From positions 1 to 34,581 of the forward strand of contig WTJA01000044.1 of the NCBI GenBank assembly GCA_011524995.1: DNA of 34,581 bases, read 5' to 3'. Made by a program: the position numbers and the translations under genes. The notes under the pieces were generated by a model. That model saw only the letters and a list, made by a program, of their open reading frames with translations, made no database searches and was not told the origin of the DNA. Each line of letters opens with the position of its first letter. The stretch's first letter is position 1. Source of the DNA: Alphaproteobacteria bacterium (GTDB lineage: Bacteria; Pseudomonadota; Alphaproteobacteria; Puniceispirillales; Puniceispirillaceae). Shown in pieces: positions 11,391-15,000 of the stretch.

Positions 11391-11602
11391 ATTTTCTTAA
11401 CTCTTTGTCTTTCATTATCTTTTTATCATCGCTTCAGTGTAAAGCTAGTCATCTTTTTTACCAAATCATTGGGCAAGAGATGGATATAGGGGAATTATGA
11501 TGGCGCTAAATGGCTGAACAAAAGCTAGTAAGAGGCAAAGAACGCTGTTACTCTTTTTATATGAATTAGAGATGTGTGACCAAAGCGGGGGTTCGGGACA
11601 AC

Positions 11603-12745
11603 ATGAAATCATATACTTTGCCAGCCATCATTGCTGCATCAGTGCTAGCGCTCGTAACTTTACTTTACACGCTCATGGCCCCTGTTACCGAAGAGGCCTC
11701 AACTCCGCAATTGGTTGAGGCCACGCCTGTCACAAAAGCACCAGAGGATACAAAGCAAGCTGTTATTGTAACTGAGGCAGAACAAAGCAAAGATAGTGAC
11801 GCCCCACTGCCAGAACTTATTATTGATATTGCCCGTGTTCAACCGGATGGTATGGCTGTCTTTGCCGGCAAAGGCGCGCCAAATGGCACGATTTTCGTTA
11901 CCGAAGCTGGGCAAGTGCTTGCCCAAAACGGCATTGATGATAATGGCCAATGGGTAGTATTGCCTGAAGCACCGCTTTCTGCCGGCGCGCATTTATTAGA
12001 ATTAGAAATGATTACAACTGATGGGCGGCGTGTGCGTGCAGATATCTCGCTCGTGGTTGAGATTTCTGTGACAAAAGATGAAAAGCCGCTTGTGGCGATT
12101 GTACCGCAAAGTGATGACGAAACCCCGCGTATCTTACAGGCGCCAGAAGAGCTGGCGATTGCCGAAGCGCCTTCGTCTGATGTCAGTGAAGACACACCAT
12201 TAAGCGCTAATCCAGAAGTGACCGAAGAAGAAGCAGAAACTGTTGCGGCTTTATTGGGGCAAGAAGATATCTTTATTCAGATTGGGTCGCTTAGCTGGCG
12301 TGATGACACCACGTTGGCCGTTCATGGGGTTGCTAGCGGCGGCGCACGTGTAACAGGCGAGATTGGCAATGTGGCACTCATTAGCGCAGATTTGCCAGAG
12401 ACTGGGCGCTGGACAGTGCTAGCTGATGGCAATCCATTCGCGGCAGGGCCAAACCAAAATTTAACCATTCGCCTGCTGGATGATGAGGGTGATGCGCTCG
12501 CCACCACATCTTTGATGATCTCACAAGATCAATTGCGCTCTGGTTTGGATGGCAGCCTCATGGTTGTGGTTCATAAAGGCGATGCCTTATGGCGCATTGC
12601 CTATCGTAGCTATGGCCGCGGTGTCCGTTATGTTGATATTTTCAAACGCAACCAGGATAAGATCAATGACCCTGATCTCATCTATCCTAATCAGATTTTT
12701 GCCGTACCAGGTGTTGAACAGCCAACGAATGCCCCAACAGAATAG
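11603..12745 (+). CDS. Membrane-anchored LysM protein with Ig-like segments
   Basis: A 380-residue envelope protein. A single hydrophobic segment near the N-terminus (about residues 5-24, LPAIIAASVLALVTLLYTLM) acts as signal anchor. It is followed by an acidic, Pro/Thr-rich linker. Two beta-rich, Ig-like segments begin near PELIIDIARVQPDGMAVFAG and IFIQIGSLSWRDDTTLAVHG. A C-terminal LysM domain (VVHKGDALWRIAYRSYGRG to PDLIYPNQIFAVPG) should bind peptidoglycan from the periplasmic side. The start at 11603 has GGGA close by. A GTG at 11576 would add nine residues and cannot be excluded. The next gene's Shine-Dalgarno overlaps its stop, so the two form an operon. Confidence 0.85.
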   Translation: MKSYTLPAIIAASVLALVTLLYTLMAPVTEEASTPQLVEATPVTKAPEDTKQAVIVTEAEQSKDSDAPLPELIIDIARVQPDGMAVFAGKGAPNGTIFVTEAGQVLAQNGIDDNGQWVVLPEAPLSAGAHLLELEMITTDGRRVRADISLVVEISVTKDEKPLVAIVPQSDDETPRILQAPEELAIAEAPSSDVSEDTPLSANPEVTEEEAETVAALLGQEDIFIQIGSLSWRDDTTLAVHGVASGGARVTGEIGNVALISADLPETGRWTVLADGNPFAAGPNQNLTIRLLDDEGDALATTSLMISQDQLRSGLDGSLMVVVHKGDALWRIAYRSYGRGVRYVDIFKRNQDKINDPDLIYPNQIFAVPGVEQPTNAPTE

Positions 12746-12757
12746 GAGCCAAATCCA

Positions 12758-13396
12758 ATGTCGCCCGTAATTTCAAAGATGACAGCGAGATATCAGCAAA
12801 TTGGCTGGCCTATCAGTGCGCTTGCTGGTCTTTTGGTTATCGGGCTGACATGGCTATCTCTGCCACTTGGCGTGATTGGTTTTATCGGGTTCTTATATTT
12901 GCAACTTTTGGTGCAACAACAAGGTGATTTTTTGCCGTTCGTGGGCACTCTTGATGCCGAGGCGATAGTTGCCCCCATTGAGGGTATAGTCTCATCCATT
13001 GAGCATAAATCAGATGCAATAATCATCACTTTCACAGGGCAAGCTACGTCCTCTCAGATTTGTTATTCGCCGGTTAATGGTGTTGTTGAAGATGTCTTAT
13101 GGATAGATGGAGAATTCACCGAGCCACATGATAATCTGTGGGCGGTTCACGCTGCCCGTCATGAGTGTGTGATTGATATGGGGCGTGATCCTATTATCCT
13201 ATGCCTGATGGGCACAAAATGGACGCGCTATCTCACCTTGTCCTACACACAAGGGCAATCTATCAATCGAGGTGAGCCATGCGGTCTGTCTTTGTTACGC
13301 AGCACAGTGCGCCTCATCATTCCAACGCATTATGATATTGCCGTCCTTGAAGGGCAGCGTGTGCTGGGCGGTCAAACCGTCATAGCAAACCGATGA
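12758..13396 (+). CDS. Phosphatidylserine decarboxylase-like protein lacking catalytic residues
   Basis: A 212-residue membrane protein whose layout follows short (type II) phosphatidylserine decarboxylases. It has an N-terminal GWPISALAGLLVIGL hairpin of two membrane segments (about 16-52), then a beta-rich domain with APIEGIVSSI, SPVNGVVEDVLWIDGEF and EGQRVLGGQTVIA. The residues needed for self-cleavage and decarboxylation are not there. SPADG reads APIEG (Asp to Glu75), the catalytic His region reads SSQICYSP, and the cleavage Gly-Ser reads Arg181-Ser182 (LLRSTVRL). It is therefore probably not a self-processing decarboxylase. AGGAG nine bases before the ATG supports the start. It overlaps the next gene by ATGA, where active psd genes usually sit with pssA. 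Confidence 0.75.
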   Translation: MSPVISKMTARYQQIGWPISALAGLLVIGLTWLSLPLGVIGFIGFLYLQLLVQQQGDFLPFVGTLDAEAIVAPIEGIVSSIEHKSDAIIITFTGQATSSQICYSPVNGVVEDVLWIDGEFTEPHDNLWAVHAARHECVIDMGRDPIILCLMGTKWTRYLTLSYTQGQSINRGEPCGLSLLRSTVRLIIPTHYDIAVLEGQRVLGGQTVIANR

Positions 13397-14001
13397 TCGA
13401 TACTAAAATCAGGCAGTTAATTGACGCGCCTTTGCGCCGAATAGGGCAGCGCCTTGTCAGTGTAGGGCTCACAGCTAATCATTTGACCTATATTGGCTTT
13501 TTACTGGGTGTGGCAGCAGGGTGCGCCATCATTCAAGGGGCATTTGGGTGGGCGCTGGCTCTTATTCTTCTCTCGCGTTTGTGTGATGGGCTAGATGGTA
13601 CAGTGGCGTGCCTGACGGGCCCCACTGATAGGGGCGCCTTTCTAGATATCAGTCTCGATTTCCTATTCTATGCGTTTATCCCTCTCTCTTTTGCCATCTA
13701 TGACAGCGCCAATGGGCTTGCGGCCGCCTTCTTGTTGTTTTGCTTTATTGGTACCTCTAGCTCTTTTCTGAGTTATGCAGCGATTGCTGAGAAAAGAGGC
13801 CAAACGGCGCAATCGCGCGGAAGCAAAGGCATACGCTATCTTGGTGGGCTCACAGAAGGGGCAGAGACGATTGCTTTTTTATGCCTTATTTGCCTGATAC
13901 CGTCTTACTTCACGCTCTGCGCTTATATATTTGGCGGGTTATGTCTTATCACAATCGCAACAAGGCTCTATCAAGGCTTTATCGATTTTGATGAGGGGTA
14001 G
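13393..14001 (+). CDS. CDP-alcohol phosphatidyltransferase family membrane protein
   Basis: A 202-residue polytopic membrane protein of the CDP-alcohol phosphotransferase family. These enzymes transfer a phosphatidyl group from a CDP-linked donor to an alcohol in lipid synthesis. The signature lies in DGLDGTVACLTG and DRGAFLDISLDF. All four metal-binding Asp residues are present (65, 68, 85, 89), as are both glycines (69, 81). The conserved Ala-Arg reads Ala72-Cys73. About five to six hydrophobic segments are visible. The acceptor alcohol cannot be told. The subfamily, with YLGGLTEG and TATR-like ends, is widespread in alphaproteobacteria and is not clearly PssA or PgsA. Its start overlaps the stop of the decarboxylase-like gene, so translation is probably coupled. 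Confidence 0.85.
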   Translation: MIDTKIRQLIDAPLRRIGQRLVSVGLTANHLTYIGFLLGVAAGCAIIQGAFGWALALILLSRLCDGLDGTVACLTGPTDRGAFLDISLDFLFYAFIPLSFAIYDSANGLAAAFLLFCFIGTSSSFLSYAAIAEKRGQTAQSRGSKGIRYLGGLTEGAETIAFLCLICLIPSYFTLCAYIFGGLCLITIATRLYQGFIDFDEG

Positions 14002-14553: not shown

Positions 14554-15000
14554 CTAGGAGTCTGTGCTTGGTGATGGCGCAGCTTCATCGTCATGATGAT
14601 ACCCTTTTTTGCCCCATCTTTTATGGCCCTTCATTTTGCGGGGCCATTCGTCACCAGCAATCAGGCCGTTAGCATCTGCATCTAAGGCGGTAAATCGTTC
14701 TGTTGGCTTGGCAAGAAACTCGTCTTGGCTAACGGTGCCATCTTGATTGGCATCAAGCGTGTTAAATAAAGTCGCCGCTCTTGCTGTGAATTCTTCTAAT
14801 GAAATTTGGTCATCATCATTGCTATCTAGCCGGTGCATGCCGCGCATGCCTTTTTTGCCAGACTTGTCCATCATATAGTCGCCATGGCCATAGCCGTGGT
14901 GATGGTCATGTTTATAGCCGGCATAAACCGCGCCTGATATGATGAGAGACGCAGCGAGAAGCCCGCCGCCAACGATATATTTTTTTCTTGAAGCACGCAT
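14554..15000 (-). CDS. Exported EF-hand protein with a His/Gly/Met-rich segment
   Basis: A 148-residue protein with an N-terminal signal sequence (basic RASRKK, then a hydrophobic stretch to about residue 27, AVYAG), so it is likely periplasmic or membrane-anchored. A His/Gly/Met-rich stretch follows (YKHDHHHGYGHGDYMM, about 29-44) that could bind metal ions. Three EF-hand-type loops come next: DSNDDDQISLEEF, DANQDGTVSQDEF and DADANGLIAGDEW, with the usual Asp/Asn ligands and closing Glu. The likely role is binding Ca2+ or another divalent metal. No enzymatic domain is seen. GGGA about eight bases before the ATG supports the start. It is divergent from the shikimate dehydrogenase-like gene. 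Confidence 0.85.
   Translation of the reverse strand: MRASRKKYIVGGGLLAASLIISGAVYAGYKHDHHHGYGHGDYMMDKSGKKGMRGMHRLDSNDDDQISLEEFTARAATLFNTLDANQDGTVSQDEFLAKPTERFTALDADANGLIAGDEWPRKMKGHKRWGKKGYHHDDEAAPSPSTDS

Follow-up and report, generated by a model that had tools for sequence, protein, structure and literature searches.

The window analyzed here, a stretch of 34,581 nucleotides from an alphaproteobacterial genome of the family Puniceispirillaceae (SAR116), contains a cassette of three consecutive genes on the forward strand. The first (11576-12745, +) encodes an envelope protein with a LysM domain (Pfam LysM, 5e-6) and an Ig-like domain (Big_6, 8e-5). It is followed by an ATG-initiated gene for a protein of 212 aa (12758-13396, +), a paralog of phosphatidylserine decarboxylase (Psd) that is predicted to be catalytically dead and that we refer to as pseudo-Psd. 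The third gene encodes a CDP-alcohol phosphatidyltransferase (13393-14001, +; PF01066, 4e-10), the start of which overlaps the stop of the pseudo-Psd gene by four bases (ATGA, 13393-13396). Predicted promoters and terminators in the cassette were not in excess over shuffled sequences, and an Rfam search of the window detected tRNAs only, none of them inside the cassette. Elsewhere in the window, a gene for a small EF-hand protein (14554-15000, minus strand) is flanked by msrB and the gene for shikimate dehydrogenase; the protein matches lanmodulin and further EF-hand families weakly.

The pseudo-Psd of the window matches the Pfam profile PF02666 over residues 86-210 (E 9.4e-11; score 42.2 bits, cut-off 22), and none of the NCBIfam psd equivalogs scored above cut-off (best 54 bits vs 183). 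In a profile-profile comparison, its relatives aligned with canonical Psd from end to end (probability 100, E 3e-40, 221 columns, 20% identity). A search of the PDB by sequence only found no significant PSD match, even for the intact Psd of the same genome, and we therefore used fold comparison instead. The AlphaFold2 model is confident (mean pLDDT 89.8, pTM 0.83), and its Foldseek matches in the PDB are headed by pyruvoyl decarboxylases, namely PsiD and the PSD of E. coli (prob 1.0, TM about 0.5); the genome's own intact Psd, included as a control, scored no better than the pseudo-Psd model. The model also predicts two long N-terminal helices (residues 3-33 and 35-52; 12764-12913, +), which probably form a membrane anchor by homology to E. 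coli PSD, a monotopic membrane protein (PMC7952604). Thus, the membership in the Psd family and the end-to-end likeness to short Psd proteins that a first, sequence-only reading of this DNA had proposed are both upheld by the profiles, and the model shows a Psd fold with an N-terminal membrane hairpin.

Pyruvoyl decarboxylases build their cofactor from their own backbone, and loss of the serine involved should end catalysis for good. The same reading had reported changes at three catalytic sites, and alignment places all of them as it described. Glu75 (codon 12980-12982, +) occupies the site of E. coli Asp90 in the SPADG strand, Gln100 (13055-13057, +) replaces the essential His144 (E. coli numbering), and Arg181-Ser182 (13298-13303, +) replaces the Gly-Ser self-cleavage pair (Gly253-Ser254 in E. 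coli); all four residues were confirmed by position in the window protein. No other Gly-Ser pair occurs in its 212 aa, and the possibility that intact catalytic residues lie in another part of the chain was rejected, as neither the sequence nor the alignment shows any. Mutagenesis of E. coli PSD has shown that decarboxylation requires His144, that self-cleavage is mostly due to His144 and Ser254 but persists slowly without His144, and that D90 mutants retain both cleavage and function (PMC7952604). The Asp-to-Glu change, which is conservative and rare in the group, is thus the least telling of the three and not decisive. To the extent that the E. coli results carry over, the substitution of Gln100 for His144 would exclude decarboxylation by the window protein, and that the protein is dead is well supported by its sequence. 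The additional claim that it stays uncleaved is uncertain, since Ser182 is retained and slow cleavage may occur.

The changes are not peculiar to one genome. Among 47 distinct SAR116 pseudo-Psd copies, none retains the Gly-Ser pair and none combines the His with the Ser, whereas all 24 canonical alphaproteobacterial Psds in a comparison set have the Asp, His, Gly and Ser. The cleavage Ser is kept in three of the 47, all from the genus of the window and preceded by Arg, Cys or Gln; another relative from this genus (L004) has Arg-Ala at the cleavage pair. The His144 position holds His in eight copies and otherwise Gln, Lys, Arg or Leu, and the Asp90 position holds Asp in 44, the change to Glu being confined to the remaining three. 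The copies without the Ser, nearly all of the rest of the group, are predicted from their sequences to be unable to make a pyruvoyl group at the cleavage site.

To judge from its distribution, the pseudo-Psd is a well-supported, conserved paralog group of a single family. A profile of the group matches 57 of 61 Puniceispirillaceae genomes, a few incomplete ones via canonical Psd only, and all 28 high-quality genomes, one of which has the pseudo-Psd split across two contigs. Full-length pseudo-Psds score about 200-277 bits against this profile and canonical Psds about 100-138 bits. The remaining families of the order encode the canonical type of Psd or nothing, and 382 genomes sampled from other families in the class yielded no match above 162 bits, the top-scoring proteins having intact catalytic sites. 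Named loci from the same genera belong to the SAR116 cluster or Candidatus Puniceispirillum. Most SAR116 genomes also hold a separate, intact Psd. This includes the window genome (1.96 Mb, 98% complete), in which the second psd envisaged by the sequence-only reading was found as an intact short Psd (L001; 1456-2166, minus strand; PF02666) beside a typical pssA on another contig, C8. The SAR116 paralogs split from all other Psds with 98% support in an unrooted tree; long branches prevent rooting, so the timing of the duplication rests on distribution and gene order.

Gene order is highly constant. Wherever a SAR116 locus has enough flanking sequence, the LysM, pseudo-Psd and transferase genes follow one another on one strand, and the transferase lies directly 3' of the pseudo-Psd in all 55 loci long enough to tell, some of which represent one genome from two collections. 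In the three other families of the order, the LysM and transferase genes are adjacent with no psd between them (20/20 loci), which suggests that the LysM-transferase pair is the older arrangement and that the dead psd entered it in the SAR116 stem. The earlier suggestion that the gene keeps the operon place of psd does not hold: the true psd-pssA pair is on contig C8, and the gene considered here is an insertion between the LysM gene and a different transferase. In 11 of 26 loci from other alphaproteobacterial orders (L167, L169-L172, L180, L182, L184, L188, L192 and L193), intact psd and pssA come first and the transferase third, an arrangement that points to an older tie of the transferase to genes for phosphatidylethanolamine (PE) synthesis. 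Many alphaproteobacteria encode the transferase without a pseudo-Psd, so the latter is not needed by the transferase in general. No fused form of the two proteins was seen among the loci.

The transferase itself keeps its active site. The motif, DGxDGxxA...GxxxDxxxD (codons 65-89; 13585-13659, +), has all acidic residues intact, and the acidic and glycine positions of the motif, together with its Ala, are invariant in 24 sequences (D65, G66, D68, G69, A72, G81, D85 and D89). The Arg that follows in DGxDGxxAR (position 73) is Cys in the window transferase (13609-13611) and Gln in one other member (L022). The best sequence matches are of the archaetidylinositol-phosphate or PIP synthase type (72 bits in NCBIfam; PDB 4mnd and 4o6m), yet this nearest score is far under the equivalog cut-off of 180 bits. 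These closest characterized relatives use inositol phosphate. No gene for inositol-1-phosphate synthase (PF01658) turned up in 19 genomes from the order; on this basis inositol phosphate was rejected as the acceptor, which is probably another compound.

The pseudo-Psd gene has dN/dS values (Nei-Gojobori) of 0.10-0.27 in nine pairs, within the range of both neighbor genes, which indicates purifying selection after the loss of catalysis. Frameshifted-looking copies in two genomes (L249 in G072, and contig 209 of G036) may be assembly errors. Mean column identity is 36%, compared with 51% for the adjacent transferase, and only seven columns of the alignment are invariant, mostly Gly and Pro. Few residues of the old Psd pocket are invariant. 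As judged from these sequences, we regard the pseudo-Psd as a real pseudoenzyme conserved across the SAR116 family; because the paralog was kept family-wide after the Ser was lost, it must do something else.

Some SAR116 lineages retain the cassette where the PE genes appear to be gone. An intact Psd is missing from all ten genomes of genus g7 and pssA from all five that were tested, and both genes are absent from one genome of genus g11. These assemblies are incomplete, although the pattern of absence recurs across genus g7. The pseudo-Psd cassette is kept in all these g7 genomes and in the g11 genome. A second PF02666 relative in g7 also looks dead, with Ser or Asn for Asp (APVSG or APLNG for APADG) and FGG for FGS. 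In the loci read for this second protein (L093, L095, L097-L100 and L104), one flank is a long gene resembling those for secreted proteins, and no pssA is nearby. From the gene content, PE synthesis via the Psd/pssA route seems to have been lost in g7.

We propose, with roughly an even chance of being right, that the pseudo-Psd serves the neighboring transferase as a subunit without catalytic activity, anchored in the membrane and binding lipid. According to this proposal, a psd paralog arose or arrived in the SAR116 stem between the LysM and transferase genes, and lost the Gly-Ser pair and a complete catalytic triad early in SAR116, after which selection kept the gene. The protein would stay uncleaved, its N-terminal hairpin keeping the beta-fold typical of Psd at the inner membrane, and its former substrate site could bind the head group of an anionic phospholipid. 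Translated together with the transferase, it would be an accessory subunit that senses or presents lipid and tunes the activity or placement of the enzyme. We infer the physical contact from the fixed adjacency and the four-base overlap of the two genes; the lipid binding and the regulatory effect are put forward in the same conditional sense. A processing-deficient malarial PSD binds PS and PG with Kd values of about 80 and 66 nM (PMC10172927), and thus an uncleaved PSD can bind anionic lipids well. Against the proposal stand the absence of a fused form, the many alphaproteobacteria whose transferase does without a pseudo-Psd, and the modest conservation of the pseudo-Psd sequence and of its old pocket. 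A role as regulator, scaffold or lipid-binding protein, which the sequence-only reading had already considered, would be the most plausible use of the protein.

Alternatively, the dead paralog could pair with the intact Psd of the cell and activate or restrain it, as a prozyme would. Most SAR116 genomes do encode such a Psd, E. coli PSD is a dimer of heterodimers (PMC7952604), and there is a precedent in another pyruvoyl decarboxylase, the AdoMetDC of trypanosomes (PMC5201418). However, the pseudo-Psd adjoins the transferase and not the intact psd in every locus examined, and its retention in g7 and in the g11 genome makes a role solely as an activator of Psd unlikely; overall we regard this explanation as rather doubtful. 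It is unlikely, too, that the protein has acquired a new enzyme activity, either without a pyruvoyl group or at another site of the fold. Purifying selection, the confident predicted fold and the persistence of several Psd residues (Arg157 is invariant, and the Asp is kept in 44 of 47 copies) would fit such an activity, but the few invariant columns and the lack of any conserved polar cluster resembling a new active site in the pseudo-Psd alignment speak against it.

We also considered a lipid-binding or envelope role in which the transferase has no part, perhaps one shared with the LysM protein, in which case the gene order would serve expression only. The LysM gene is equally constant upstream and is an older neighbor of the transferase. 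On the other hand, the four-base overlap seen in the window and the unvarying position beside the transferase point to a tie with this enzyme, which acts on lipids, just as the pseudo-Psd has the fold of a lipid enzyme, and we judge this role to be very unlikely. The chance that the window protein and its close Ser-keeping relatives are not fully dead, cleaving at Arg-Ser (or at Cys-Ser or Gln-Ser) and forming a pyruvoyl group, is slighter again. The Ser and the slow cleavage of His-less E. coli PSD would permit it, whereas E. coli needs His144 for decarboxylation itself, this residue is Gln in the window protein, the Ala of L004 shows the Ser replaced within the same genus, and the Ser is absent in all other genera read. 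Finally, a decaying pseudogene or sequencing artefact, which the lost catalytic residues might have suggested, was rejected as vanishingly improbable on the strength of the dN/dS values, the open frames in dozens of genomes and the presence in every high-quality genome.

If the proposed subunit role is correct, the pseudo-Psd is a clean example, open to experiment, of how a lipid enzyme can become a lipid-binding regulator, and it comes from bacteria that are abundant in the ocean. The pseudo-Psd draws attention to an uncharacterized CDP-alcohol transferase that is widespread in Alphaproteobacteria. It also cautions that a match to PF02666 is no proof of PE synthesis, as one SAR116 genus has two Psd-type proteins that appear dead and no intact one. 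In the open-access literature, the scope of our search, we found no description of a bacterial pseudo-Psd and no paper linking phosphatidylserine decarboxylase with pseudoenzyme or similar terms.

Among known systems, the short bacterial Psd, represented by the intact copy of the same genome, is like the pseudo-Psd in fold, length and N-terminal membrane hairpin, aligns with it end to end and shares the AP-x-DG-like strand and the C-terminal G-T-x-A strand. It differs in having the Gly-Ser pair and catalytic His that the window protein lacks, the triad being complete in none of the 47 relatives, and in its gene neighborhood. A further dead Psd-like protein occurs in the alphaproteobacterial family f129, in 45 of 60 good genomes (loci L244, L245 and L250-L279). 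It is likewise a PF02666 relative, in which Gly-Gly replaces Gly-Ser (all 30 sequences read) and the His is Asn or Thr, but unlike the SAR116 protein it is about 300 aa long, has an acidic tail and is encoded beside an ABC transporter gene with no transferase adjacent. Since it scores nearer to canonical Psd and has a different neighborhood, its loss of catalysis was probably independent. We tentatively suggest, although the balance leans somewhat against so broad a statement, that dead Psds are recurrent lipid-binding regulators in bacteria, that the SAR116 one was inserted beside a lipid-making transferase and now controls it without any dependence on PE synthesis, and that a dead Psd evolved separately in at least one further family of Alphaproteobacteria. 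By analogy, the closest functional precedent is the AdoMetDC prozyme of trypanosomes, a dead pyruvoyl-decarboxylase paralog kept in the genome beside an active copy (PMC5201418). The pseudo-Psd likewise coexists with an active copy in most SAR116 genomes, but not in g7 or the g11 genome; unlike the prozyme, its gene is linked to that of another enzyme and persists after the loss of the active paralog.
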